DNA of 64,000 bases from Prosthecobacter sp. (lineage in GTDB: Bacteria; Verrucomicrobiota; Verrucomicrobiia; Verrucomicrobiales; Verrucomicrobiaceae). The position numbers were made by a program, and so were the translations under genes. Positions 817-11,301 of the stretch are shown piece after piece. How positions within the stretch are numbered: the stretch's first letter is position 1; each line of letters begins with the position of its first letter. Below the pieces are notes generated by a model. The model ran no database searches. It was not told the origin of the DNA and saw only the letters and a program-made list of their open reading frames with translations. The stretch lies in NCBI RefSeq assembly GCF_034366625.1, contig NZ_JAXMIH010000016.1, forward strand, positions 1 through 64,000. The letters are read 5' to 3'.

Positions 817-2244
817 CTAGGCAGCAAGAATCAACATCGCCTTCGCACCCGGCCCGCTTTCAAGATTTGTCAGTTCCACGCTGCCACCATGTAGTTCCGC
901 GACTTCCTTGACGAAGCACAGGCCGAGGCCGGTGCTCTTTTTGCCGGTGTCGGGGCGCGGCAGCGAGTAGAAGCGCTCGAACACACGCTCACGCGCATAA
1001 TCGGGAATGCCGGGGCCGCGATCCTCGATCTCGATCACTACATTCGAGTCGAAGCGGTAGCTGCGGACGCTGATCGCGCTTCCTTTCGGCGCAAAGTCGA
1101 TGGCGTTTTGGATGAGATTGCTCACGGCCAGCTCGATGAGCCACGGATCGCCTTGAATGACGTGATCGCCGGTCATTTCACGTTGCAGGCTGACTTCACG
1201 GCCCGCAGCGATGAGCGCATGATGATCCCATGCGCGGTACAGCATCTCATGAAGGTTTACCGGCTCGCGATTTTCGAGCGTTTTCTGCTTCTCTATCGCG
1301 GCGAGGTGCAGCAGGCGTTCCAGCAGGTCACGCAGTCTCCCGGCTTCGGATCGGATGTTTTGCAGAAAGCGGGCGCGCTTCGGCTCGGGCACATCGCCTT
1401 GCAGAATCTCGCTGGCGCCAAGGATGGCGGCGACGGGGCTTTTCAGTTCGTGCGTGAGACTCTGGACGTAGTTCTCAACGTATTCGCGGCCTTCGAGCGC
1501 ATCGCGCATGTCTTCGAGCGCCGTTGCAAGCGTCTTCATTTGATGGCCCGGCATGTGCGGCGAAGTGGATCGCTCGCCACGGCTCACCGCGAGCGCATGG
1601 CGCGACAGATCATCCAGCGGCCGGGTGGCCCAGCGGGCAGCAAGGTAGATGCCCAGCAGCATGAGGACGACGGTGGTGACGATGGACCATTTCAGCCAGC
1701 GCTCCGTCTCCCACACAAAAGCGAGGACGCCGCGTTGCGGCTTGGCGACACTGAGCATGCCGAGGGTTCGGTCGTTTTGCCGGATCGGCGCGCCGACATA
1801 CATCACGACGGAAAGAGGGTCGTATTCACTGGTGCGAGAGGAGCGTGCGCCGTATTCGCCCATCAACGTGAGATTCACATCGCGATGATTGGAGATCGTT
1901 CCGGGCGTCTCGATGCCGGCGGAGTCGAACAGCACACGTCCTTGCGCATCAGTGACATAGACCTGCATGTCCACCTGCGTCTTGGTGCGATTGTAGATTT
2001 GCGCGTTGAGCTGGCGCTGTTGCGCGGCGCGGATGGCCTTTTCGACGGCCTGCGGTTCCAAAACGCCGTTCTTCGCATCGGCAGCGAAGATTTCGGCCAG
2101 GATGTTCGCCACATCGACCATCGGCTCCTCCACCGCCTCGAAATACTGCCGCTCGACTCGATGAATGAGCTGCGAGAACAGCACAAACAGCCCCACACTG
2201 GCCACGAGCGCGAAACCGAGAAGGAAACGTGCGGTCAGGCTCAT
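817..2244 (-). CDS. creC: two-component sensor histidine kinase CreC
   Basis: A 475-residue membrane histidine kinase. An N-terminal membrane segment (about residues 5-27) and a second one (about 185-205) flank a periplasmic sensor with the CreC-typical stretch VYVTDAQGRVLFDS, followed by HAMP, the phospho-acceptor motif SLTHELKSP (His265) and a HATPase domain with the N-box (NLIQNAIDF), DRGPGIPDYA and TGLGL. Similarity to E. coli CreC runs end to end as far as I can recall it. Its ATG overlaps the stop of creB by 4 bp, so the pair is translationally coupled. Expected role: sensing a carbon or envelope signal and phosphorylating CreB. The actual signal cannot be read from sequence. Confidence 0.93.
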   Translation of the reverse strand: MSLTARFLLGFALVASVGLFVLFSQLIHRVERQYFEAVEEPMVDVANILAEIFAADAKNGVLEPQAVEKAIRAAQQRQLNAQIYNRTKTQVDMQVYVTDAQGRVLFDSAGIETPGTISNHRDVNLTLMGEYGARSSRTSEYDPLSVVMYVGAPIRQNDRTLGMLSVAKPQRGVLAFVWETERWLKWSIVTTVVLMLLGIYLAARWATRPLDDLSRHALAVSRGERSTSPHMPGHQMKTLATALEDMRDALEGREYVENYVQSLTHELKSPVAAILGASEILQGDVPEPKRARFLQNIRSEAGRLRDLLERLLHLAAIEKQKTLENREPVNLHEMLYRAWDHHALIAAGREVSLQREMTGDHVIQGDPWLIELAVSNLIQNAIDFAPKGSAISVRSYRFDSNVVIEIEDRGPGIPDYARERVFERFYSLPRPDTGKKSTGLGLCFVKEVAELHGGSVELTNLESGPGAKAMLILAA

Positions 2245-2939
2245 GCGTCAGGCCAGGTTTCGAGCAACGAGTAGCCCATGCCGCGATGCGTGACGATGGG
2301 ATCAATGGCCGACCGCACCCCGCGCATGCGGGAGCGCAGGGTTTTGATGTGCGTGTCCACCGTGCGTTCCATGGAGGCGTCTGGTTCTTCGGACGCGTGA
2401 TCCATGAGCTGTTCGCGGCTGAACACGCGGCCCGGATGCGCGGCGAAGGCCTTCAGCATGCGGAACTCATAACGCGAGAGATTCAAGGCGGTGCCAAAGT
2501 AGATGGCCTGGCAGCGCACGTCGTCGATGACGAGCGGGATGGAGGCGTCGTGGCCGTTCGGCGGCAGCGGTGTGGCTGAAACACGCCGCAGGATCGCACG
2601 CACGCGGGCGACGAGTTCGCGCGGGCTGAAAGGTTTCACGACGTAGTCATCGCCCCCGATCTCCAAACCCACCACACGATCCACTTCGCTGGAGCGTGCG
2701 GTGAGAAAGAGAATCGGCAACGACTGTGTCTTGCGGATCGTTTGGCACACCTCGAAGCCCGTCATGTCCGGCAGACCGACATCGAGGATGATGAGATCGA
2801 AGGTCTGCGACTTCATCTGCTCCAACGCGTCGCGACCCGTGGTGGCGGTCGTAACCGCGAATCCATCGGCTTCGAGGGCATAGACGACGTTTTCGCAGAT
2901 GGAGGGTTCGTCTTCGACGACGAGGATGCGAGTGGGCAT
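2241..2939 (-). CDS. creB: two-component response regulator CreB
   Basis: A 232-residue OmpR-family regulator. The receiver domain (about residues 3-115) has the acidic pair ED near residue 10, the phospho-acceptor Asp53 in LIILDVGLPD, and KPFSPRELVARV. A winged-helix DNA-binding domain follows (about 135-228; LNLSRYEFRMLKAF, VDTHIKTLRSRMR, THRGMGYSL). It overlaps creC by 4 bp and starts 39 bp after creD. In Enterobacteria and Aeromonas, CreB activates creD and other genes through direct TTCAC repeats; similar repeats lie upstream of this operon at 5352-5401. Confidence 0.93.
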   Translation of the reverse strand: MPTRILVVEDEPSICENVVYALEADGFAVTTATTGRDALEQMKSQTFDLIILDVGLPDMTGFEVCQTIRKTQSLPILFLTARSSEVDRVVGLEIGGDDYVVKPFSPRELVARVRAILRRVSATPLPPNGHDASIPLVIDDVRCQAIYFGTALNLSRYEFRMLKAFAAHPGRVFSREQLMDHASEEPDASMERTVDTHIKTLRSRMRGVRSAIDPIVTHRGMGYSLLETWPDA

Positions 2940-4196: not shown

Positions 4197-5340
4197 AGTT
4201 GCTGGTGCGTTTGCGATAGGTGATGCGGGCTTGGGGTTGTTGATCGCGGCAGAGGGATTTGCGGAGGTACAATCCGGGAGCGGTGGTTTTGTCGGTGATG
4301 GGATCGACGTTGCCGGTGAAGGTGAGGTCGTAGCCGGTGGGGAGTTGCACGTTCCAGTCGATCTGCTTCGCAAAGAGCGGTGTCTGCGGCAGGGCGAGAT
4401 CGAGTTCGCCTTCGGCGGCCTGCAAGGCGGTAAGGGTGGAGGTGAAGGAGAGCTTCACCTCGGACTCAGCTCCGTCGGTGGCGGGATCATCGAGTGGGAT
4501 CTCGATGCGATTCACTTCGCCGAGCGTGGGACGCACGGGATCGGCGTTGACGTGGCATTGGAGAAGTTTCGCGGCCTCGGGAAGCTGCAAAACGAGTTTC
4601 ACGGGTTGATCGTGACGCACGGTGATCGAGCCTTCGGTCAAAACCGAGCCGTCGCGGACGACTTGGGTCGTGTAACTGGCCGTGGAGACGATGGCGTCGT
4701 CAGTGGAGCCGGCAGGAGATGTTTGCGCGGCTGTGCGGGCGTCTTCGAGCGTGAGGGTGATTTCGCCGCCGCTGGCGGGCAGGGCGGTTGTTCCGGCTAG
4801 GACGATGTTTTTCGTCGTGGAGCCGTGTTGGAGGTGCAGAACTTTGTTTTCCGGCAGTTCTTTGACCTCCAGCGAAGCGATCGGAGACGCCGCGAGATGC
4901 AACGTGGTCCCCTGCCCTTCATGCGCGAGTGCGAAGGTGAGTTTCACGGTCTGTGCACCAGTCTTGTCGGTGATGAGGCAAAGATGATCCTCGGTGACGA
5001 CGATGCGTGAATCTTTGGGTTCGACCGAAACCGCACCCGAGACCGCGCCTGCGAGAGGGATGGCATGCCAGGCGGCGTCGAAGCTCTCCACCTGCATCTC
5101 GGCGATGATCGTGCCTGCCTTGGCATCGAGACGGTAGATCGTCGAAAGCAACGCGGCAGGCACGGGCGGCGGTTTCGGTTCCGGCGGTGTTTCCTTCGGT
5201 AAAGTGGCGGCAACGAGGCGTTTGAGCTCGCCATAGGTGATGCGCACCTCGCTCTCATCGAGCGTGGCGGCGGTGACGCGGTTTTCGGTTTGAGCCAGCA
5301 CTGAAGCGGCTCCGAGCAGGAGAATGAGCAGTGGTTTCAT
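4195..5340 (-). CDS. secreted protein of unknown function in the cre operon
   Basis: A 381-residue protein with a clear signal peptide (MKPLLILLLGAASVLAQ). I do not recognise a family. The mature part is rich in beta-strand-like alternation and polar residues with no cysteines apart from one or two near the end, suggesting repeated immunoglobulin-like or sandwich domains (inference). It is the first gene of the creDBC run, ending 31 bp before creD, and the TTCAT/TTCAC array lies only 11 bp before its ATG. The context makes it a probable CreB-controlled envelope protein that works with CreD. The creD large extracytoplasmic domain looks similar in style, so the two may interact. Confidence 0.8.
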   Translation of the reverse strand: MKPLLILLLGAASVLAQTENRVTAATLDESEVRITYGELKRLVAATLPKETPPEPKPPPVPAALLSTIYRLDAKAGTIIAEMQVESFDAAWHAIPLAGAVSGAVSVEPKDSRIVVTEDHLCLITDKTGAQTVKLTFALAHEGQGTTLHLAASPIASLEVKELPENKVLHLQHGSTTKNIVLAGTTALPASGGEITLTLEDARTAAQTSPAGSTDDAIVSTASYTTQVVRDGSVLTEGSITVRHDQPVKLVLQLPEAAKLLQCHVNADPVRPTLGEVNRIEIPLDDPATDGAESEVKLSFTSTLTALQAAEGELDLALPQTPLFAKQIDWNVQLPTGYDLTFTGNVDPITDKTTAPGLYLRKSLCRDQQPQARITYRKRTSN

Positions 5341-5351
5341 CGACGCTCATG

Positions 5352-5401
5352 GTGAAAAGCGGCGTGAAACCTTGATGAAGCGGGGATGAAATGGTGATGA
5401 A
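5352..5401 (-). promoter_or_regulatory. putative CreB-box array (five TTCAT/TTCAC repeats)
   Basis: Read on the minus strand, five pentamers TTCAT, TTCAT, TTCAT, TTCAC, TTCAC occur with start-to-start spacing of 11, 11, 11 and 12 bp. Plus-strand positions are 5397-5401, 5386-5390, 5375-5379, 5364-5368 and 5352-5356. The known CreB tag is TTCAC-N6-TTCAC, an 11-bp period. The last box ends 11 bp before the ATG of the first gene of the cre operon. Binding by the local CreB is inferred from motif and position. Confidence 0.6.
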
Positions 5402-5506
5402 AACGCGGTTCACATCAATGGCGTGGCGGAATGCGTTGCAGGCGCTGCTGTTAGGCGCGGCGTGTGGCGTAACACCGGGTTTGCTTCCCACTTTTGATGC
5501 GCTGGA

Positions 5507-5573
5507 CCTAGGGCGGCACTCGCTTAGGCTCGCTTGCCCTGGGCTGGCTTCCGTAGCCCCGTTGGAGCTGGGG
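5507..5573. repeat. REP-like double hairpin in the cre/cco intergenic region
   Basis: The 236 bp between the cre operon start and the TauE-like stop contain two imperfect palindromes: CCTAGGGC (5507-5514) pairs with GCCCTGGG (5536-5543), and a second stem follows (AGCCCC at about 5554 against GGAGCT). It sits just 3' of the cco operon and may act as its transcription end. From memory it resembles intergenic repeats common in planctomycete and verrucomicrobial genomes; that is not verified here. Confidence 0.45.
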
Positions 5574-5576
5574 ATC

Positions 5577-6275
5577 TCACATCACCGCGTGGCAGCAGCT
5601 TGGAATTGCGTCGCTGCCGAAATCGAGGGTGCCACGAAGACGCCAGGCCATGATGAGGGCGGCGGTGAAGGCGAGGGTGCGCTGGATTTTGCGCATGGTC
5701 TGAGGCTGCACTTTGCCACCGATGAGGTGGAGCTGGGTTTGAGCGATCCAGAGGAGTGGGAGCGTGCCGAGACCGAAGGCGAAGGCGAATTCGGCGCCTT
5801 TGATGGCGGAGCCGTTGGCCATGGCGAGGGCGAACATCAGATAAAGCGGGCCGCAGGGCAGCAGTGGTGTGGCGAAGCCGAGCAGGCCAGCCCGTGCGGC
5901 ACCTGGCATGCGGAAGGCGAAACTCTGAATGCGGCGGACTCCGGCGCGGAGGAATTGCGGCTTCGGCAGATAGGTCTCCAAACCCATGCCGACGATGGCG
6001 AAGGCGATGACGAGCAGCCAGGGCAAAACGATGCCTGCACCATGCTGGAAGAAGCTCAGGGGCATGATGCCTATCATACCGGCGATGGAACCGACGACGG
6101 CATACGAAACAAGCCTCCCGGCATGATACAGGCCGGTGTCGCGCATGAAATTGGACGCACCAGACTTGGCGGTGACCGCCCAGGAGCAGGACAACGGACC
6201 GCACATGGCCACGCAGTGGACGCTGGTGACGAGTCCGGCCAGAAAGGCGGCGGCGCTGGTATCAATGGACTGCAT
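5577..6275 (-). CDS. TauE/SafE-like (UreH/DsbD_2 type) membrane protein of the cco cluster
   Basis: A 232-residue protein with about six hydrophobic helices and the family signature HCVAMCGP (about residues 20-27) plus a second TPLLPCGPLY motif. Proteins of this type are annotated as sulfite exporter TauE/SafE family or urease accessory UreH-like and frequently close cbb3 oxidase gene clusters, where a part in metal (copper) supply or cytochrome maturation is suspected. The conserved Cys/Met/His motif fits metal handling (inference). It is the last gene of the run and overlaps the preceding short FixH-like gene by 14 bp. The C-terminus has a further CC pair. Confidence 0.8.
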   Translation of the reverse strand: MQSIDTSAAAFLAGLVTSVHCVAMCGPLSCSWAVTAKSGASNFMRDTGLYHAGRLVSYAVVGSIAGMIGIMPLSFFQHGAGIVLPWLLVIAFAIVGMGLETYLPKPQFLRAGVRRIQSFAFRMPGAARAGLLGFATPLLPCGPLYLMFALAMANGSAIKGAEFAFAFGLGTLPLLWIAQTQLHLIGGKVQPQTMRKIQRTLAFTAALIMAWRLRGTLDFGSDAIPSCCHAVM

Positions 6276-6417
6276 GGACGGTGCGAGTGGTGAGCGGAAT
6301 CTCAGGCGGCGCGTTTTTGATGGCGAGCGTGATGAAAAAGACCCACCAAGAGACGAAACCGATGAAGGCGACGGCCACGAAGAGCCAAGGGCGGCTGGAG
6401 ATGCATTTCGGAATCAT
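6262..6417 (-). CDS. short FixH-like single-helix membrane protein
   Basis: A 51-codon reading frame starting with MIPKCISSRPWLFVAV; one transmembrane helix (about residues 10-33) ends in an aliphatic-rich ITLAIKN. This pattern (PW, helix, then IKN or VRN) is the N-terminus of FixH/CcoH, but the periplasmic domain of a full FixH (about 150 residues) is missing. It lies between ccoG and the TauE-like gene, where fixH normally sits, and overlaps the next gene by 14 bp. It is either a minimal CcoH or a truncated remnant. CcoH normally stabilises CcoP assembly. Confidence 0.6.
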   Translation of the reverse strand: MIPKCISSRPWLFVAVAFIGFVSWWVFFITLAIKNAPPEIPLTTRTVHAVH

Positions 6418-6455
6418 GGCGGGAGAAGTAAAGGTGATGAGTTAGGAAGCCCTGT

Positions 6456-7889
6456 TTAGCGGATGAAGTCTTTGGCGTTGAGCGCAGCGGCAGGCGGGGC
6501 CTTCGGATCGGGGCCGAGGTATTCCATGACGCGGGTCTCGCTGCTGTCGCCACGAGCGGCATCTGTGACTTTGATGCGGAACTTGAAGTGCTCTTTGAAG
6601 TCGGCCTGCGGCAGGGTGAGCACGAGGGTCTTCAAATCCTCGCCCATGGGCGGGAGCGTGATGGTTTGATCGACACCGATGATCTTCAAGGAAGCCGGCA
6701 CAGCACCGACGAGTTCGATCTTGTAGGTGGACTCGGCATTGCGCTTGTTGATGATGCGGAGCTGGAACTGATTGCGGATGACTCCGGCATCGACGTAGAA
6801 CGAAGCCCCGCCCATGCGCACGACGCTGGCCCGCAGCGGCGAGATGCGCGTGATGGCGAAGCTGAAGGCGACTGCCCCGACGACCAGCATGAGGGTGTAG
6901 AAGATGGTGCGAGGACGAACGAGCCGTGTTTTTCCGCCCTGGAGGCCGATGAAGGAGTCGTAGCGCACGAGCCCTTTCGGACGCTTGAGCTTGGTCATGA
7001 TGTCGTCGCAGGCATCGACACAGGCGGCGCAACCGATGCACTCCAACTGGAGACCGTTGCGGATGTCGATGCCGGTGGGGCAGACCTGCACGCAGCGGCG
7101 GCAGTCGATGCAATCGCCGGCCGGTTTTTCGACGGTGGCTTTGCCACGCGGCTCACCGCGTTTTTTGTCGTAGCCGATGACTACGGAGTTGTCGTCCGTG
7201 AGCGCGGATTGAAGGCGGCCATAGGGGCAGAGAATGATGCAGAACTGCTCACGGAACCAACTGAATGAGAAATACAACGCGCCGGTGAGGAAGAGCACGA
7301 CGCCGAAGGCCTTGGCATGATGCGCGGGCGAGTGCTGCATCATCTCATAGAGCGACTTGATCGAAACAAAGTAGCTGAGGAAGATGTGGGCGATGACGGC
7401 GGAGATGAGGATGAAGATCCCGTGCTTGAACACACGGCGGGCGATCTTGGAGGCCGTCCAGGGCGCGTCTTCGAGCTGGCGGCGCGCAGGGCCGTCGCCG
7501 TCGATCCAGCGCTCCACGCGGCGATAGAGCTGCTCCATGAACACGGTGTAGGGGCAGGTCCAGCCGCACCAGACGCGACCGAAGAGCGAGGTGACGTAGA
7601 AGAGTGAAAAGGCGAGGCCGGTGACGAGGAAGAAGCCGATCCAGAGATCCTGGGTGGCGAGCGTGAGGCCAAAGAAATGGAAACGGCGCTCCTGCACATC
7701 GAGAAAGACGGCGGGAAAGCCGTTCACCGGAATCCACGGCAGCGCCACATAGATGACCAGCAGCACCAGCGCCGCGACTCGTCTCCAGAAAGTGAAGGGG
7801 CCATGAACATCCGACGGTTGAACGAATTTGCGCGAACCGTCGGCGTGGATGGTGGAGAGTGAGTCGAGTGTGGGGGTGCTGGGTTTCAT
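6456..7889 (-). CDS. ccoG: cbb3 oxidase accessory iron-sulfur protein CcoG (FixG/RdxA)
   Basis: A 477-residue membrane protein. After a short cytoplasmic lead come membrane helices (about residues 32-52, 79-103, 155-175, 190-212) with the motif GRVWCGWTCPYTVF. Two ferredoxin-type 4Fe-4S motifs follow at about 255-290 (CIDCRRCVQVCP and CIGCAACVDAC), then another helix and a C-terminal periplasmic immunoglobulin-like domain typical of FixG_C. CcoG is implicated in copper reduction for cbb3 assembly. It begins 37 bp after ccoP and is co-directional with the rest of the operon. Confidence 0.93.
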   Translation of the reverse strand: MKPSTPTLDSLSTIHADGSRKFVQPSDVHGPFTFWRRVAALVLLVIYVALPWIPVNGFPAVFLDVQERRFHFFGLTLATQDLWIGFFLVTGLAFSLFYVTSLFGRVWCGWTCPYTVFMEQLYRRVERWIDGDGPARRQLEDAPWTASKIARRVFKHGIFILISAVIAHIFLSYFVSIKSLYEMMQHSPAHHAKAFGVVLFLTGALYFSFSWFREQFCIILCPYGRLQSALTDDNSVVIGYDKKRGEPRGKATVEKPAGDCIDCRRCVQVCPTGIDIRNGLQLECIGCAACVDACDDIMTKLKRPKGLVRYDSFIGLQGGKTRLVRPRTIFYTLMLVVGAVAFSFAITRISPLRASVVRMGGASFYVDAGVIRNQFQLRIINKRNAESTYKIELVGAVPASLKIIGVDQTITLPPMGEDLKTLVLTLPQADFKEHFKFRIKVTDAARGDSSETRVMEYLGPDPKAPPAAALNAKDFIR

Positions 7890-7925
7890 TTCCGTGCCTG
7901 GCGCGTCAGGCGGATGCTGTCCGAA

Positions 7926-8516
7926 TTATTTCTTCAAAGGTGAATCTGCGGAGAGCGTGATGGGCTCGCCCTGCTTGTGCTTGCTGAGAATGAAAGCGAC
8001 GACTTCAACCACACGATTCAGGCCGAGCTGCGGCTCCCATGGCGGCATGCCCTTGGTGAGATCAGGCGCGCCTTTGCGGACAATGCTGAGAAGCTGCAAC
8101 GGATTGCCGCCGTGTTTCCATTCGGTGTCGTTGAGCGGCTGGCCAGGAAGCTTGACGCCGTTGATGTGTGCGGAGAGATCCGGCGCATGGCAAGCCACGC
8201 AGGTGGTGGCAAAGGTAGCGGCACCGGCCCCCACGATCTTGTCGTCCTGAGACATGGCCCAGAGCTTGTCGTCAGTGAGCTTTTCGAGCTCTTTGAGCTG
8301 GACGGCCTGGATGTTGGCGAGAGCCTTGTCCACCTGCTCCTCGCCGGATTCACCGAGGCTGAGCTGGTAGTAGGCCACCCAGGCGATCACAAACCACACC
8401 ATGGTGATGTACCAGGTGAAGAGCCACCAGTTCGGCAGTTTCTGATCGTACTCCTGAATGCCGTCATAGGTGTGGTCACGGAGAACGGGGCCGTTGTTGG
8501 GAGATTGGGGTGTCAT
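7926..8516 (-). CDS. ccoP: cbb3 oxidase subunit III, mono-heme CcoP
   Basis: A 196-residue subunit. The N-terminus has the CcoP signature (HTYDGIQEYD, LPNWW) followed by one membrane helix (about residues 31-50) and a single cytochrome c domain with CVACH at 106-110 and the axial-Met region GMPPWE near 166. Typical CcoP proteins have about 300 residues and two CxxCH hemes, so this one carries half the usual c-type domain content. The usual N-terminal DUF4405-like helix pair is also absent. Electrons would pass through this heme and that of CcoO to the CcoN active site. Gene order ccoNO-ccoQ-ccoP supports the call. Confidence 0.9.
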   Translation of the reverse strand: MTPQSPNNGPVLRDHTYDGIQEYDQKLPNWWLFTWYITMVWFVIAWVAYYQLSLGESGEEQVDKALANIQAVQLKELEKLTDDKLWAMSQDDKIVGAGAATFATTCVACHAPDLSAHINGVKLPGQPLNDTEWKHGGNPLQLLSIVRKGAPDLTKGMPPWEPQLGLNRVVEVVAFILSKHKQGEPITLSADSPLKK

Positions 8517-8546
8517 GTCGAAGGGCGGGGTTGAAAGTCGCGAAGA

Positions 8547-8702
8547 TCAGTCGTCCAAGGGAAGGCGGGACATTTTGGCGGCGCTGTCTTTGCGCAGACC
8601 GATGGCGCGCACGATGAAGATTAGGAACACTGCCGCCGTGACGCCAAAGGCGAGGTAGGGCACCCAATCGAGCGCGGAGTCGTAGATGATGCGTTTGTAC
8701 AT
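8547..8702 (-). CDS. ccoQ: cbb3 oxidase small subunit CcoQ (FixQ)
   Basis: A 51-codon frame beginning MYKRIIYDSALDWV, with one membrane helix (about residues 14-33) followed by a charged C-terminus (LRKDSAAKMS). Size, topology and position between ccoNO (18 bp upstream) and ccoP (30 bp downstream) match CcoQ, which stabilises the core complex. Sequence similarity in such short subunits is weak, so the call rests mainly on context. Confidence 0.75.
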   Translation of the reverse strand: MYKRIIYDSALDWVPYLAFGVTAAVFLIFIVRAIGLRKDSAAKMSRLPLDD

Positions 8703-8720
8703 GGTTTGCGGGGTGTTTGA

Positions 8721-11108
8721 TTATTTCGTGACGGAGGAGCTGCGGTAACCGTCAGGGATGCCGGGTTTCAGCGGGAACGGTATGCCTGCTGGTGTGCCTC
8801 TGAGTTTCCCCTCAAGATCTGGCACGTCGAATTTCCCGAGTTTCTGCAGGTAGGCGATGATGGCGACGATCTTCGTGTCCGGCAGGGCACCGCTGCGGCC
8901 CTGGGTCTCGAGATCCTTGACGATCTGGATGCCCTGCTCGACCGCCTTGGTCTTCACCTCGGTGTCGGTCATCGCTGGATAAGGAACGCCAAGCTGCGTC
9001 ATGACGGCGATCTTCTTCCACAGCGTCTTCTGGTCGAACTTCTCGGTGAAGAGATGCGTGTAGGGCGGCATGTTGGAGCCGACCGAGATCGAGCGCGGAT
9101 CCTTCATGTGGTCGTAATGCCAGCTATGTGGGTATTTGCCGCCTTCGCGGGCGAGATCGGGACCGGTGCGCTTCGATCCCCATTGGAAGGGATGATCGTA
9201 GATGCTCTCACCGAGGCGGCTGTAGTCACCGTAGCGCAGCACGTCCGGCAGCATGGTGCGGATCATTTGCGAGTGGCAGTTGTAACAACCTTCGCTGACG
9301 TAGATGTCACGTCCGGCGAGTTCGAGCGGCGTGTAGGGCTGCTGGATGCGGTCTTCGACGTTGGTGGCACGATTGACCATGACCGTGGGGATGATCTGGA
9401 TGAGACCGCCGAGAGCCACTGCCACAAAGGTGAGCACCGTGAAGGGCAGCCAGTTGTGCAGCAGGCTTTCATACCACTGCGACCAGCGGTTGTGACCCGT
9501 TTGAAACCGCTTCACCGCCAGCACAGCAAACACACCCGCGCAAACCAGCGCGGCGATGTCGGCACCGGGCGGCAGGAAGAGCCAGGCAAGCACCAGAAGG
9601 AGCCCGGCGAACATGCAGGCGATCGGATCATTGAGGAAGGTCTCCTTCAGGCTCATCGTGTCGCGCTGCGTGCGTTCGATGACGGCCACTTCGCGGGTCT
9701 CGTTCACCGGGCTGCCCTTGCGGATGGTCAGCCAGATGTTGACGCCCATGAGGATCATGCCCGCCAGGTAGAGGGAACCGCCGATGATGCGGAAGCCCAT
9801 CAAGAAGCGGATGGAGGTCAGCGTGTCGATGAAGTTCGGATAGACCAGCGCCAGACCGTCAGGCGTGGTGGCATTCAGCATGAGGCCCTGCATGATTCCT
9901 GACCACCACATCGCAGCGACATAAATCAGGATGCCGATGGTGCCGATCCAGAAGTGGAAGTTCGCCCAGCTCGTCGAGTACAGCTTCGCGCCGTAGAGCC
10001 TAGGCGTGAGCCAGTAGAACATGCCCGCGGCCATGAAGCCGTTCCAGCCCATCGCACCGGCATGCACATGGCCGATGGTCCAGTCCGAGTAATGCGAGAG
10101 CGCATTGACCGCACGGATGGAGAGCAGCGGCCCTTCAAAGGTGGACATGCCGTAAAACGTAACGGCGGCGACGAAGAACTTGATCACGGGATCGGTGCGC
10201 AGCTTGTCCCACGCGCCACGCAGCGTGAGAAGGCCGTTGAGCATGCCGCCCCAGCTCGGCGCCCACAGCATGAGGCTGAAAAACGTGCCCAGCATCTGCA
10301 GCCATTTCGGCAGCGCGGTATTCAGCAGGTGGTGCGGGCCGGCCCAGATGTAGATGAACACCAGCGACCAGAAGTGAACGATGGACAGACGGTAGGAATA
10401 CACCGGACGCTCCGCCGCCTTCGGCAGGAAGTAGTACATGATGCCCAGAATCGGCGTCGTGAGGAAGAAGGCCACGGCGTTGTGCCCGTACCACCACTGC
10501 ACCAGCCCGTTCTGCACCCCGGCAAAGATCGTGTAGCTGTGCGTCCAGCTCGTCGGGATCGACAGATGGTTCACGATGTAAAGCATCGCGATGGTGATGA
10601 TGGTGGCGATGTAGAACCACAGCGCCACGTAGAGGGAGGGCTCGTTGCGTTTCGCCAGCGTCCAGAAGAAGTTCACAGAAAAGACGACCCAGATCAGCGC
10701 CACGGCGATGTTGATCGGCCAGATCAGTTCGGCGTATTCCTGACCACGCGTGAGCCCCAGCGGCAGCGTGATCGCCGCCGCCACAATGATGAGCTGCCAG
10801 CCCCAGAAGTGGATGTTGGAGAGCATATCCGACGCCGTACGCGCCTTGCACAGACGCTGCGTCGAGTAGTAGATGCCAGCGAACATCATGTTCCCCACGA
10901 AGGCGAAGATCACCGCGTTCGTGTGCAGCGGACGCAGACGGCCAAAACTGAGCCAGGAGGCCAGATTGAGCTGATGGAAGTTCAACTGCGAGGCGATGAA
11001 GACGCCCGCCAGCATGCCCACGATGCCCCAGATGATGGAGGCAATCATGAAGCGCCGGACGGTGCGGTCATCGAACTCGATGGTGATCTTGGAGGCGTTG
11101 GTGGTCAT
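8721..11108 (-). CDS. ccoNO: fused cbb3 oxidase subunits I and II (CcoN-CcoO)
   Basis: A 795-residue fusion. Residues from about 20 to 480 are the twelve-helix heme-copper core CcoN (LRPLHTNAVIFAF, WYGHNAVAFFLT for the CuB/active-site region, GHVHAGAMGWNGF for the low- and high-spin heme histidines). A hydrophobic linker leads to CcoO, with a membrane anchor and the heme c motif EGCYNCHSQMIRTM near residue 607. The ATG at 11106-11108 (MTTNASKITIEF) is preferred over an upstream in-frame extension of low-complexity sequence that overlaps ccoS. NO fusions are known in several phyla. It reduces oxygen to water at low oxygen and pumps protons. Confidence 0.95.
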   Translation of the reverse strand: MTTNASKITIEFDDRTVRRFMIASIIWGIVGMLAGVFIASQLNFHQLNLASWLSFGRLRPLHTNAVIFAFVGNMMFAGIYYSTQRLCKARTASDMLSNIHFWGWQLIIVAAAITLPLGLTRGQEYAELIWPINIAVALIWVVFSVNFFWTLAKRNEPSLYVALWFYIATIITIAMLYIVNHLSIPTSWTHSYTIFAGVQNGLVQWWYGHNAVAFFLTTPILGIMYYFLPKAAERPVYSYRLSIVHFWSLVFIYIWAGPHHLLNTALPKWLQMLGTFFSLMLWAPSWGGMLNGLLTLRGAWDKLRTDPVIKFFVAAVTFYGMSTFEGPLLSIRAVNALSHYSDWTIGHVHAGAMGWNGFMAAGMFYWLTPRLYGAKLYSTSWANFHFWIGTIGILIYVAAMWWSGIMQGLMLNATTPDGLALVYPNFIDTLTSIRFLMGFRIIGGSLYLAGMILMGVNIWLTIRKGSPVNETREVAVIERTQRDTMSLKETFLNDPIACMFAGLLLVLAWLFLPPGADIAALVCAGVFAVLAVKRFQTGHNRWSQWYESLLHNWLPFTVLTFVAVALGGLIQIIPTVMVNRATNVEDRIQQPYTPLELAGRDIYVSEGCYNCHSQMIRTMLPDVLRYGDYSRLGESIYDHPFQWGSKRTGPDLAREGGKYPHSWHYDHMKDPRSISVGSNMPPYTHLFTEKFDQKTLWKKIAVMTQLGVPYPAMTDTEVKTKAVEQGIQIVKDLETQGRSGALPDTKIVAIIAYLQKLGKFDVPDLEGKLRGTPAGIPFPLKPGIPDGYRSSSVTK

Positions 11109-11127
11109 AGAGGGGGGCGAAGGGAAA

Positions 11128-11301
11128 TTAGGAAAGCGGAGTTTGGCGGCGGGAGGGAGCTGGAGCGCCGTCATCGAGCGGCAGCAGGGCGTCCTGCTCG
11201 ATGCTGCGGTCCCGCCTCTGCGAGCGCTCGGCAAAAAACAGCACCGCAAACAGCACGGCGAACGCGAGGCTCATGAAGATGGTGACAGCGAAGACTTCCA
11301 T
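11128..11301 (-). CDS. ccoS: cbb3 oxidase maturation protein CcoS (FixS)
   Basis: A 57-residue protein, MEVFAVTIFMSLAFAV at the start, one membrane helix (about residues 2-24), then a charged segment ending in DALLPLDD, which matches the CcoS ending PLDD or similar. CcoS is needed for cofactor insertion into CcoN. It is the first gene of the cco operon, 19 bp before ccoNO. The in-frame upstream extension is rejected because it removes the membrane helix from the N-terminus. The copper ATPase CcoI that usually precedes ccoS is not here. Confidence 0.75.
   Translation of the reverse strand: MEVFAVTIFMSLAFAVLFAVLFFAERSQRRDRSIEQDALLPLDDGAPAPSRRQTPLS

Follow-up and report, generated by a model that had tools for sequence, protein, structure and literature searches.

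A conserved array of TTCAY direct repeats as a probable CreB operator in front of the creD-like-creBC operon of Prosthecobacter and related Verrucomicrobia

Results

The window, the whole 64,000-nucleotide stretch of Prosthecobacter DNA analysed here (contig NZ_JAXMIH010000016.1, positions 1 to 64,000), carries on its minus strand an operon with the gene order X, creD-like, creB, creC (Table 1). The preliminary description of this DNA had placed the ATG of the first cre gene behind a set of repeats, an assignment that we had to correct, since the ATG at 5340 opens gene X. The second gene is called creD-like because its product covers only positions 297-428 of the PF06123 profile, that is, its last third, and fails the CreD equivalog NF008712 (32.7 bits against a cut-off of 275). 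The product of X, which matched no sequence in the PDB even at E = 1, is predicted to be nearly all beta behind a hydrophobic N-terminus. An AlphaFold model built from three sequences was of low confidence (mean pLDDT 69, pTM 0.44), and its best fold matches, an oligosaccharyltransferase subunit and M1 peptidases, carry little information at TM-scores of 0.38 or less. X shares 31% and 27% identity with two longer homologues, one in JALZUH010000135 of the Akkermansiaceae (L175:1223-2854, minus strand) and one in JAGXGH010000124 of the Verrucomicrobiales (L237:2035-3687, minus strand), and may be a partner of the creD-like protein in the periplasm. Upstream, positions 5577-11249 of the minus strand hold a gene with a DsbD_2 domain according to Pfam and, judged by eye, an apparent cbb3-type cytochrome oxidase cluster with a ccoG-like gene.

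Read on the minus strand from 5401 to 5352, the DNA within 62 bp of the ATG of X has the form TTCAT-6-TTCAT-6-TTCAT-6-TTCAC-7-TTCAC, with steps of 11, 11, 11, and 12 bp, so that the pentamer repeats of the preliminary description are confirmed in the letters; they also stand out against shuffled sequence. Four TTCAY pentamers at 11-bp steps occur once in the window with zero mismatches, and the 3 matches found when up to three mismatches were allowed are all registers of this one array, whereas 100 shuffles of the window gave a mean of 0.02 matches (largest, 1), and we rejected a chance origin partly on this ground. A longer pattern, comprising the array plus the A and T of the hexamer described below, had a single match at up to three mismatches across the 6.65-Mb genome, namely, the array of the operon, and its reversed control had none; this pattern at this threshold thus revealed no wider regulon in the window's own genome. 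One three-site match elsewhere in the same genome (C11:229603) was rejected, as NANNNT is absent from both the +10 and the +11 offset, and the first open frame starts 86 bp on, with TTG. The known cre/blr tag of Escherichia coli CreB and Aeromonas BlrA, TTCACNNNNNNTTCAC, is linked to CreB and creD according to PMC3660660 and PMC4689548. In the window we did not find the strict TTCAC-N6-TTCAC tag but did find its TTCAY form, with the 11-bp step of the tag and, like it, upstream of a creD operon.

Table 1. Features of the operon and of the DNA in front of it (window coordinates)
Feature	Position	Strand	Remarks
Gene X, first gene of the operon, 381 aa	4195..5340	-	No Pfam or NCBIfam match
ATG of X	5338..5340	-	23 bp behind half-site 4; probable leaderless start
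creD-like gene, 397 aa	2979..4172	-	PF06123, 37.4 bits (cut-off, 23)
creB, response regulator	2241..2939	-	NF008296, 313.1 bits (curated cut-off, 273)
creC, sensor histidine kinase	817..2244	-	NF008312, 530.3 bits (curated cut-off, 356)
Half-site 1 (outermost), TTCAT	5397..5401	-	T/T/C/A kept at 0.99/0.97/0.97/0.86 in 72 arrays outside the genus
Half-site 2, TTCAT	5386..5390	-	T/T/C/A kept at 0.99/1.00/1.00/1.00 in 72 arrays outside the genus
Half-site 3, TTCAT	5375..5379	-	T/T/C/A kept at 0.99/0.97/1.00/0.97 in 72 arrays outside the genus
Half-site 4 (innermost), TTCAC	5364..5368	-	T/T/C/A kept at 0.96/1.00/1.00/0.99 in 72 arrays outside the genus
-10-like hexamer, CACCAT	5349..5354	-	+10..+15 behind half-site 4
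Fifth pentamer of the preliminary description, TTCAC	5352..5356	-	Overlaps the hexamer; not conserved as a half-site

Of the 288 genomes of the order Verrucomicrobiales that we searched with the creD-like protein as a query, 81 gave a match; from these we took 75 loci, one per genome, leaving out those with weak or fragmentary matches (G181, G175, G144, G132, G027, and G147). Upstream sequence of 1.45 kb (in the window's genus) or 2 kb (elsewhere) was available for 59 of the 75, and 57 of these 59 eligible loci had an array matching at least 17 of the 20 half-site letters on the coding strand, while neither the reverse strand nor the reversed sequence gave a single one (0/59 each). At 16/20 or better the respective counts were 58, 1, and 4 of 59. 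One locus, L043, has the creD-like gene and no array; among the 16 loci excluded for short upstream sequence, the array was seen in 4 as well. The array lies 1.2-1.3 kb before creD in the window's genus and 0.9-1.95 kb before it at other loci that have X, where the length of X differs, and at three loci in which X was not detected (L070, L071, and L078) it stands directly before creD, at about 76-100 bp. Where creB lies apart from creD (L009, L015, and L019), a second array is found in front of creB, and in genome G199 (L120) the array precedes a response regulator gene adjoining creC.

We also compared the distribution of arrays (called at one mismatch or none) with that of CreC (called above its cut-off). 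Arrays were present in 121 of the 288 genomes of the order (against 8 for the reversed pattern, by hand count) and CreC in 143; 103 of the 143 CreC-positive genomes had arrays, compared with 18 of the 145 CreC-negative ones (Fisher p = 5e-26, ancestry being handled only by the split by genus), and within the window's genus the figures were 20/25 and 4/23 (p = 3e-5). The reversed pattern was distributed 1/143 to 7/145. No array at this threshold was found in 40 of the 143 CreC-positive genomes of the order. Five of these belong to the window's genus; four of the five have an array at 17-18/20 (L022, L024, L025, and L026), and the fifth, G148, gave no creD-like match. Seven of the 18 CreC-negative genomes with arrays were examined; there were creD-like matches in G059, G179, and G181, partial CreC matches in G014 and G101, and simple repeats in G060 and G071.

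The association extended to a draw of 288 genomes from the phylum, 250 of them outside the order, in which the reversed pattern was present in 4 of the 288: outside the order, 18 of 34 CreC-positive and 7 of 216 CreC-negative genomes had arrays (p = 5e-13, a statistic that ignores kinship), and 16 of the 34 had none at one mismatch or fewer. Of these 34 CreC loci we fetched 20, of which 9 had an array at 18/20 or better (L264, L266, L274, L276, L277, L278, L280, L281, and L283) and 11 had none at that threshold. In 8 of the 9 loci the creC match ends 27-380 bp before the array; at L278 the array is divergent from creB. The gene after the array is a canonical CreD in L264 and L281 (PF06123, 480.6 and 431.4 bits), a VIT/VWA protein in L266, and a gene without a Pfam family match in L276 and L280.

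Direct repeats are usual for the OmpR/PhoB family, as described for pho boxes (PMC10294691), and the PhoP protein of Mycobacterium tuberculosis reads 7-bp motifs with a 4-bp spacer (PMC4832192), so that another regulator of this family, such as PhoB, might read the array instead of CreB. The four-site pattern gave at least 119 stretches over genomes of all phyla, from many phyla and including AT-rich and repeat-rich ones. Among the matches listed, 124 TTCAY arrays had the hexamer NANNNT at +11 more often than at any other offset (34 of 124, against 21 at the runner-up), and this included arrays whose fetched surroundings yielded no cre gene. Also among the matches listed, TTCAY arrays of Firmicutes, spirochaetes, and others (e.g., L185, L188, L190, L193, L222, and L223) have TANNNT at +11, and such arrays may be Pho-type boxes. 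Against another regulator as the reader of the present arrays, they track CreC and stand at cre genes, and six CreC-negative, array-free genomes of the window's genus hold PhoB-like regulators (239-244 bits), although this is a weak control, as none of the 7 genomes searched, the window's included, had a PhoB above the TIGR02154 cut-off. We regard it as very unlikely that a regulator other than CreB is the one concerned.

To align what follows the array, we used 96 unique arrays (111 before removal of duplicates), dropping repeats with three identical spacers and keeping the most downstream register; 72 of them come from outside the window's genus (51 genomes, 22 genera) and 24 from within it. 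Behind the last half-site there is a conserved -10-like hexamer, [C/G]ANNNT. Counted from the end of that half-site, 79% of the 72 nongenus sites have A at +12 and 83% have T at +16; NANNNT starts at +11 in 53 of them and is missing there in 19, the next best of the first 50 offsets having 11/72 and the background being 4.5%. In 18 of the 22 genera, at least half of the sites have the hexamer. It starts at +10 in 20 of the 24 sites of the window's genus, and at the nine loci from outside the order it was found at +11 behind the best register in every case, being absent at weaker registers or sites of L276, L280, and L283.

The preliminary description had counted five half-sites, and one could suppose that all five pentamers are bound by CreB, the fifth covering the -10 element and the start, so that the array also represses at high CreB levels. 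The fifth pentamer is indeed present in the window and lies on the same DNA face, give or take one base; however, it occurs downstream in 1 of the 96 unique arrays, the window's alone, relatives within the genus mostly have TTTTGAG at this place, and an exact extra half-site is found upstream of the array instead, in 9 of 96. Since the fifth pentamer is the hexamer CACCAT with TT in front, in the window only, we rejected five half-sites as the conserved unit in favor of four, and we give very little credence to a fifth, repressing site.

The hexamer is usually followed closely by a start codon. The first ATG of an open frame of at least 60 codons lies within 28 bp behind the array in 49 of the 72 nongenus sites, 41 of which have the hexamer, with a gap of 4-10 nt from hexamer to ATG in 38 of the 41, and a Shine-Dalgarno-like word was found in 4 of the 49; in the window's genus, 18 of 24 sites have the ATG 23 bp behind the array. 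Of the 23 nongenus sites that lack a near ATG, 12 have the hexamer. At L276, L280, and L283, where the ATG lies 41-43 bp behind the array instead of the 23 of the window, and at the VIT-like genes of L122, L124, and L129, which belong to one genus and bring the range of distances to 41-49 bp, the position of the hexamer is unchanged. The hexamer is thus tied to the array rather than to the start codon, as would be the case for a -10 element. On the assumption of a transcription start 6-9 nt behind the hexamer, the mRNAs of near-ATG sites would be leaderless. By eye, inverted repeats that differ by lineage lie between the array and the ATG at L052, L054, L056, L059, and L078 (e.g., CTGCCAGCTTGGCAG in L056).

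With the array no more than 62 bp from the ATG, the promoter might also lie upstream, the array being a repressor or attenuation site in the leader; in Stenotrophomonas maltophilia, creD is upregulated when creBC is inactivated (PMC4689548), so the sign of regulation may differ. Yet the 40 bases upstream are unconserved within the genus (identity, 0.29-0.33, compared with 0.94 for the half-site columns), no sigma-70 hexamer pair was found in 5250-5700, and the distance from hexamer to array is kept, as an activator site would need, so that an upstream promoter seems to us very improbable. The three N6 spacers have identities of 0.64, 0.58, and 0.93 in the genus, and the start of X has 0.62. 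The third spacer, CAAGGT (window 5374-5369), is the near-fixed one, and CA is favored at the start of the spacer elsewhere. TTCAY tandem repeats with identical spacers do exist (G060, G071, and G019), but the probability that the array is a chance product or a functionless minisatellite is practically nil, since outside the genus the half-sites are kept and the spacers are not (0.87 versus 0.32-0.35) and the position is kept at the 57 creD-like loci noted above.

Inspection of the genes behind 60 loci of the order, with 20 chosen proteins scanned against Pfam, showed that other arrays of the order precede X-like genes and proteins without a family match. Arrays also stand before VIT/VWA proteins (L089 and L126, with TIGR03788 below its cut-off), a metallophosphoesterase (L085), a DUF817 protein (L166), and a DUF4153 protein (L114). 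Secreted VIT/VWA proteins recur behind the array, by Pfam in L089, L126, and L266 and by likeness only in L099, L115, L122, L124, and L129; they score below the cut-off of the "marine sortase target" family, which they resemble. In one genus, three genomes have a LytB/IspH-like gene behind the array, identified by Pfam (LYTB) in L102 and by likeness only in L103 and L104.

Discussion

We interpret the array as an operator through which CreB would activate the X-creD-creBC operon, a reading to which we assign a probability of about 85% on the strength of sequence comparisons. The arrangement, with direct repeats where a -35 element would stand, a constant distance to a poor -10 element, and no sigma-70 pair, argues for activation by CreB and for positive autoregulation, although the sign is less than certain in view of creD in S. 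maltophilia. In this model, two head-to-tail dimers of phosphorylated CreB would occupy the four TTCAY half-sites; the one on the inner pair (half-sites 3 and 4) would take the place of the -35 element and recruit domain 4 of sigma-70 in the manner of PhoB, and the outer one would strengthen CreB binding. RNA polymerase would use the weak -10 element [C/G]ANNNT, 9-10 bp downstream, and initiate on the ATG or a few bases away from it, yielding a leaderless mRNA, with positive autoregulation of creBC as a consequence. In this scheme we infer CreB binding, the number of dimers, cooperativity, activation, the sigma contact, and the start site; the 11-bp period is compatible with CreB binding and cooperativity.

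The wider proposal, that the order has a distinct kind of CreB promoter with two tandem dimers, no -35 element, a poor -10 element, and a start pinned to the ATG, through which CreB phosphorylation would turn on an envelope-related regulon transcribed as leaderless mRNAs (X, CreD, creBC, VIT/VWA, IspH-like, and small membrane proteins) and only partly shared with E. coli, has in our estimation even odds of being correct. CreBC occurs in several bacterial groups, its signal varies by species, and its regulon is described for a few Gammaproteobacteria, according to PMC4689548. Among the open-licence publications listed on CreB(C) in Verrucomicrobia and Planctomycetes and on leaderless promoters, judged by title and the start of the abstract, we found no description of the four-site form, its spread in the phylum, the hexamer gap shared with E. 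coli, or the probable leaderless transcripts. The array is probably a conserved switch whose targets may be readable from genome sequence; a code of this kind with an exact distance to the -10 element would allow regulons to be predicted in uncultured bacteria, and it makes a link of CreBC to the cell envelope testable.

The window array shares with the cre/blr tag of E. coli and Aeromonas the pentamer, the 11-bp step, and the location upstream of creD; it differs in having four half-sites instead of two, with T or C as the last base, and the start codon in this group usually stands right behind the hexamer, in contrast to the Shine-Dalgarno leader of the cre/blr tag genes. In E. coli K-12, a gap of exactly 10 bp separates the two half-sites of cbrA from TAGTCT and those of cbrB from TAAATT, both hexamers being of the form TANNNT. 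E. coli creD reads by eye TTCAC-6-TTCAC-5-TTCAA-10-CATAGT (L143:3802-3850); its TTCAA is an apparent degenerate third half-site, 10 bp before CATAGT, that is left out of the usual two-site tag. We read TAGTCT, TAAATT, and CATAGT as putative -10 elements. ynaI, which we take to be a further Cre-regulon gene of E. coli, has no tag in the preceding 130 bp. The creD promoter of E. coli shares its gap to the hexamer with the arrays described here, but instead of four sites at 11 bp it has only three, of which the last is degenerate and follows at a step of 10 bp, and unlike the window operon it lies behind creC and has a leader with an aaggag word. From the equal gap it follows that the innermost pair stands at the position of the E. 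coli tag and that two half-sites have been added outside. The nine arrays from outside the order all have NANNNT at +11, and 8 of the 9 lie behind creC, as in E. coli. The recognition helix, RTVDTHIKTLR, is identical in the CreB proteins of the window and of E. coli, whereas that of E. coli PhoB is RTVDVHIRRLR, and 53 further CreB sequences, among them the copy of the window itself (L004), conform to RT[VI]D[TAS]H[IV]K. The suggestion of the preliminary description that a CreB-type recognition code is conserved in a distant phylum, and thus common to Enterobacteria and Verrucomicrobiota, is well supported by the conservation of the array, its association with CreC, the recognition helix, and the E. 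coli gap.

PhoB promoters have no -35 element and recruit sigma domain 4 (PMC4496699). Like pho boxes at such promoters, the array consists of strictly spaced direct repeats near the -35 position and has no -35 element, and its sequence has the features of a PhoB-type promoter, namely, the lack of a -35 element and direct repeats at a fixed distance from -10. The CreB of the window is itself akin to PhoB, reaching 195.9 bits with the PhoB model, below its cut-off, but the two regulators differ in recognition word, recognition helix, and regulon. Between E. coli and the Verrucomicrobiota, it appears that the DNA code and the geometry of the promoter have been kept; what differs is how many half-sites there are and whether a leader is used.
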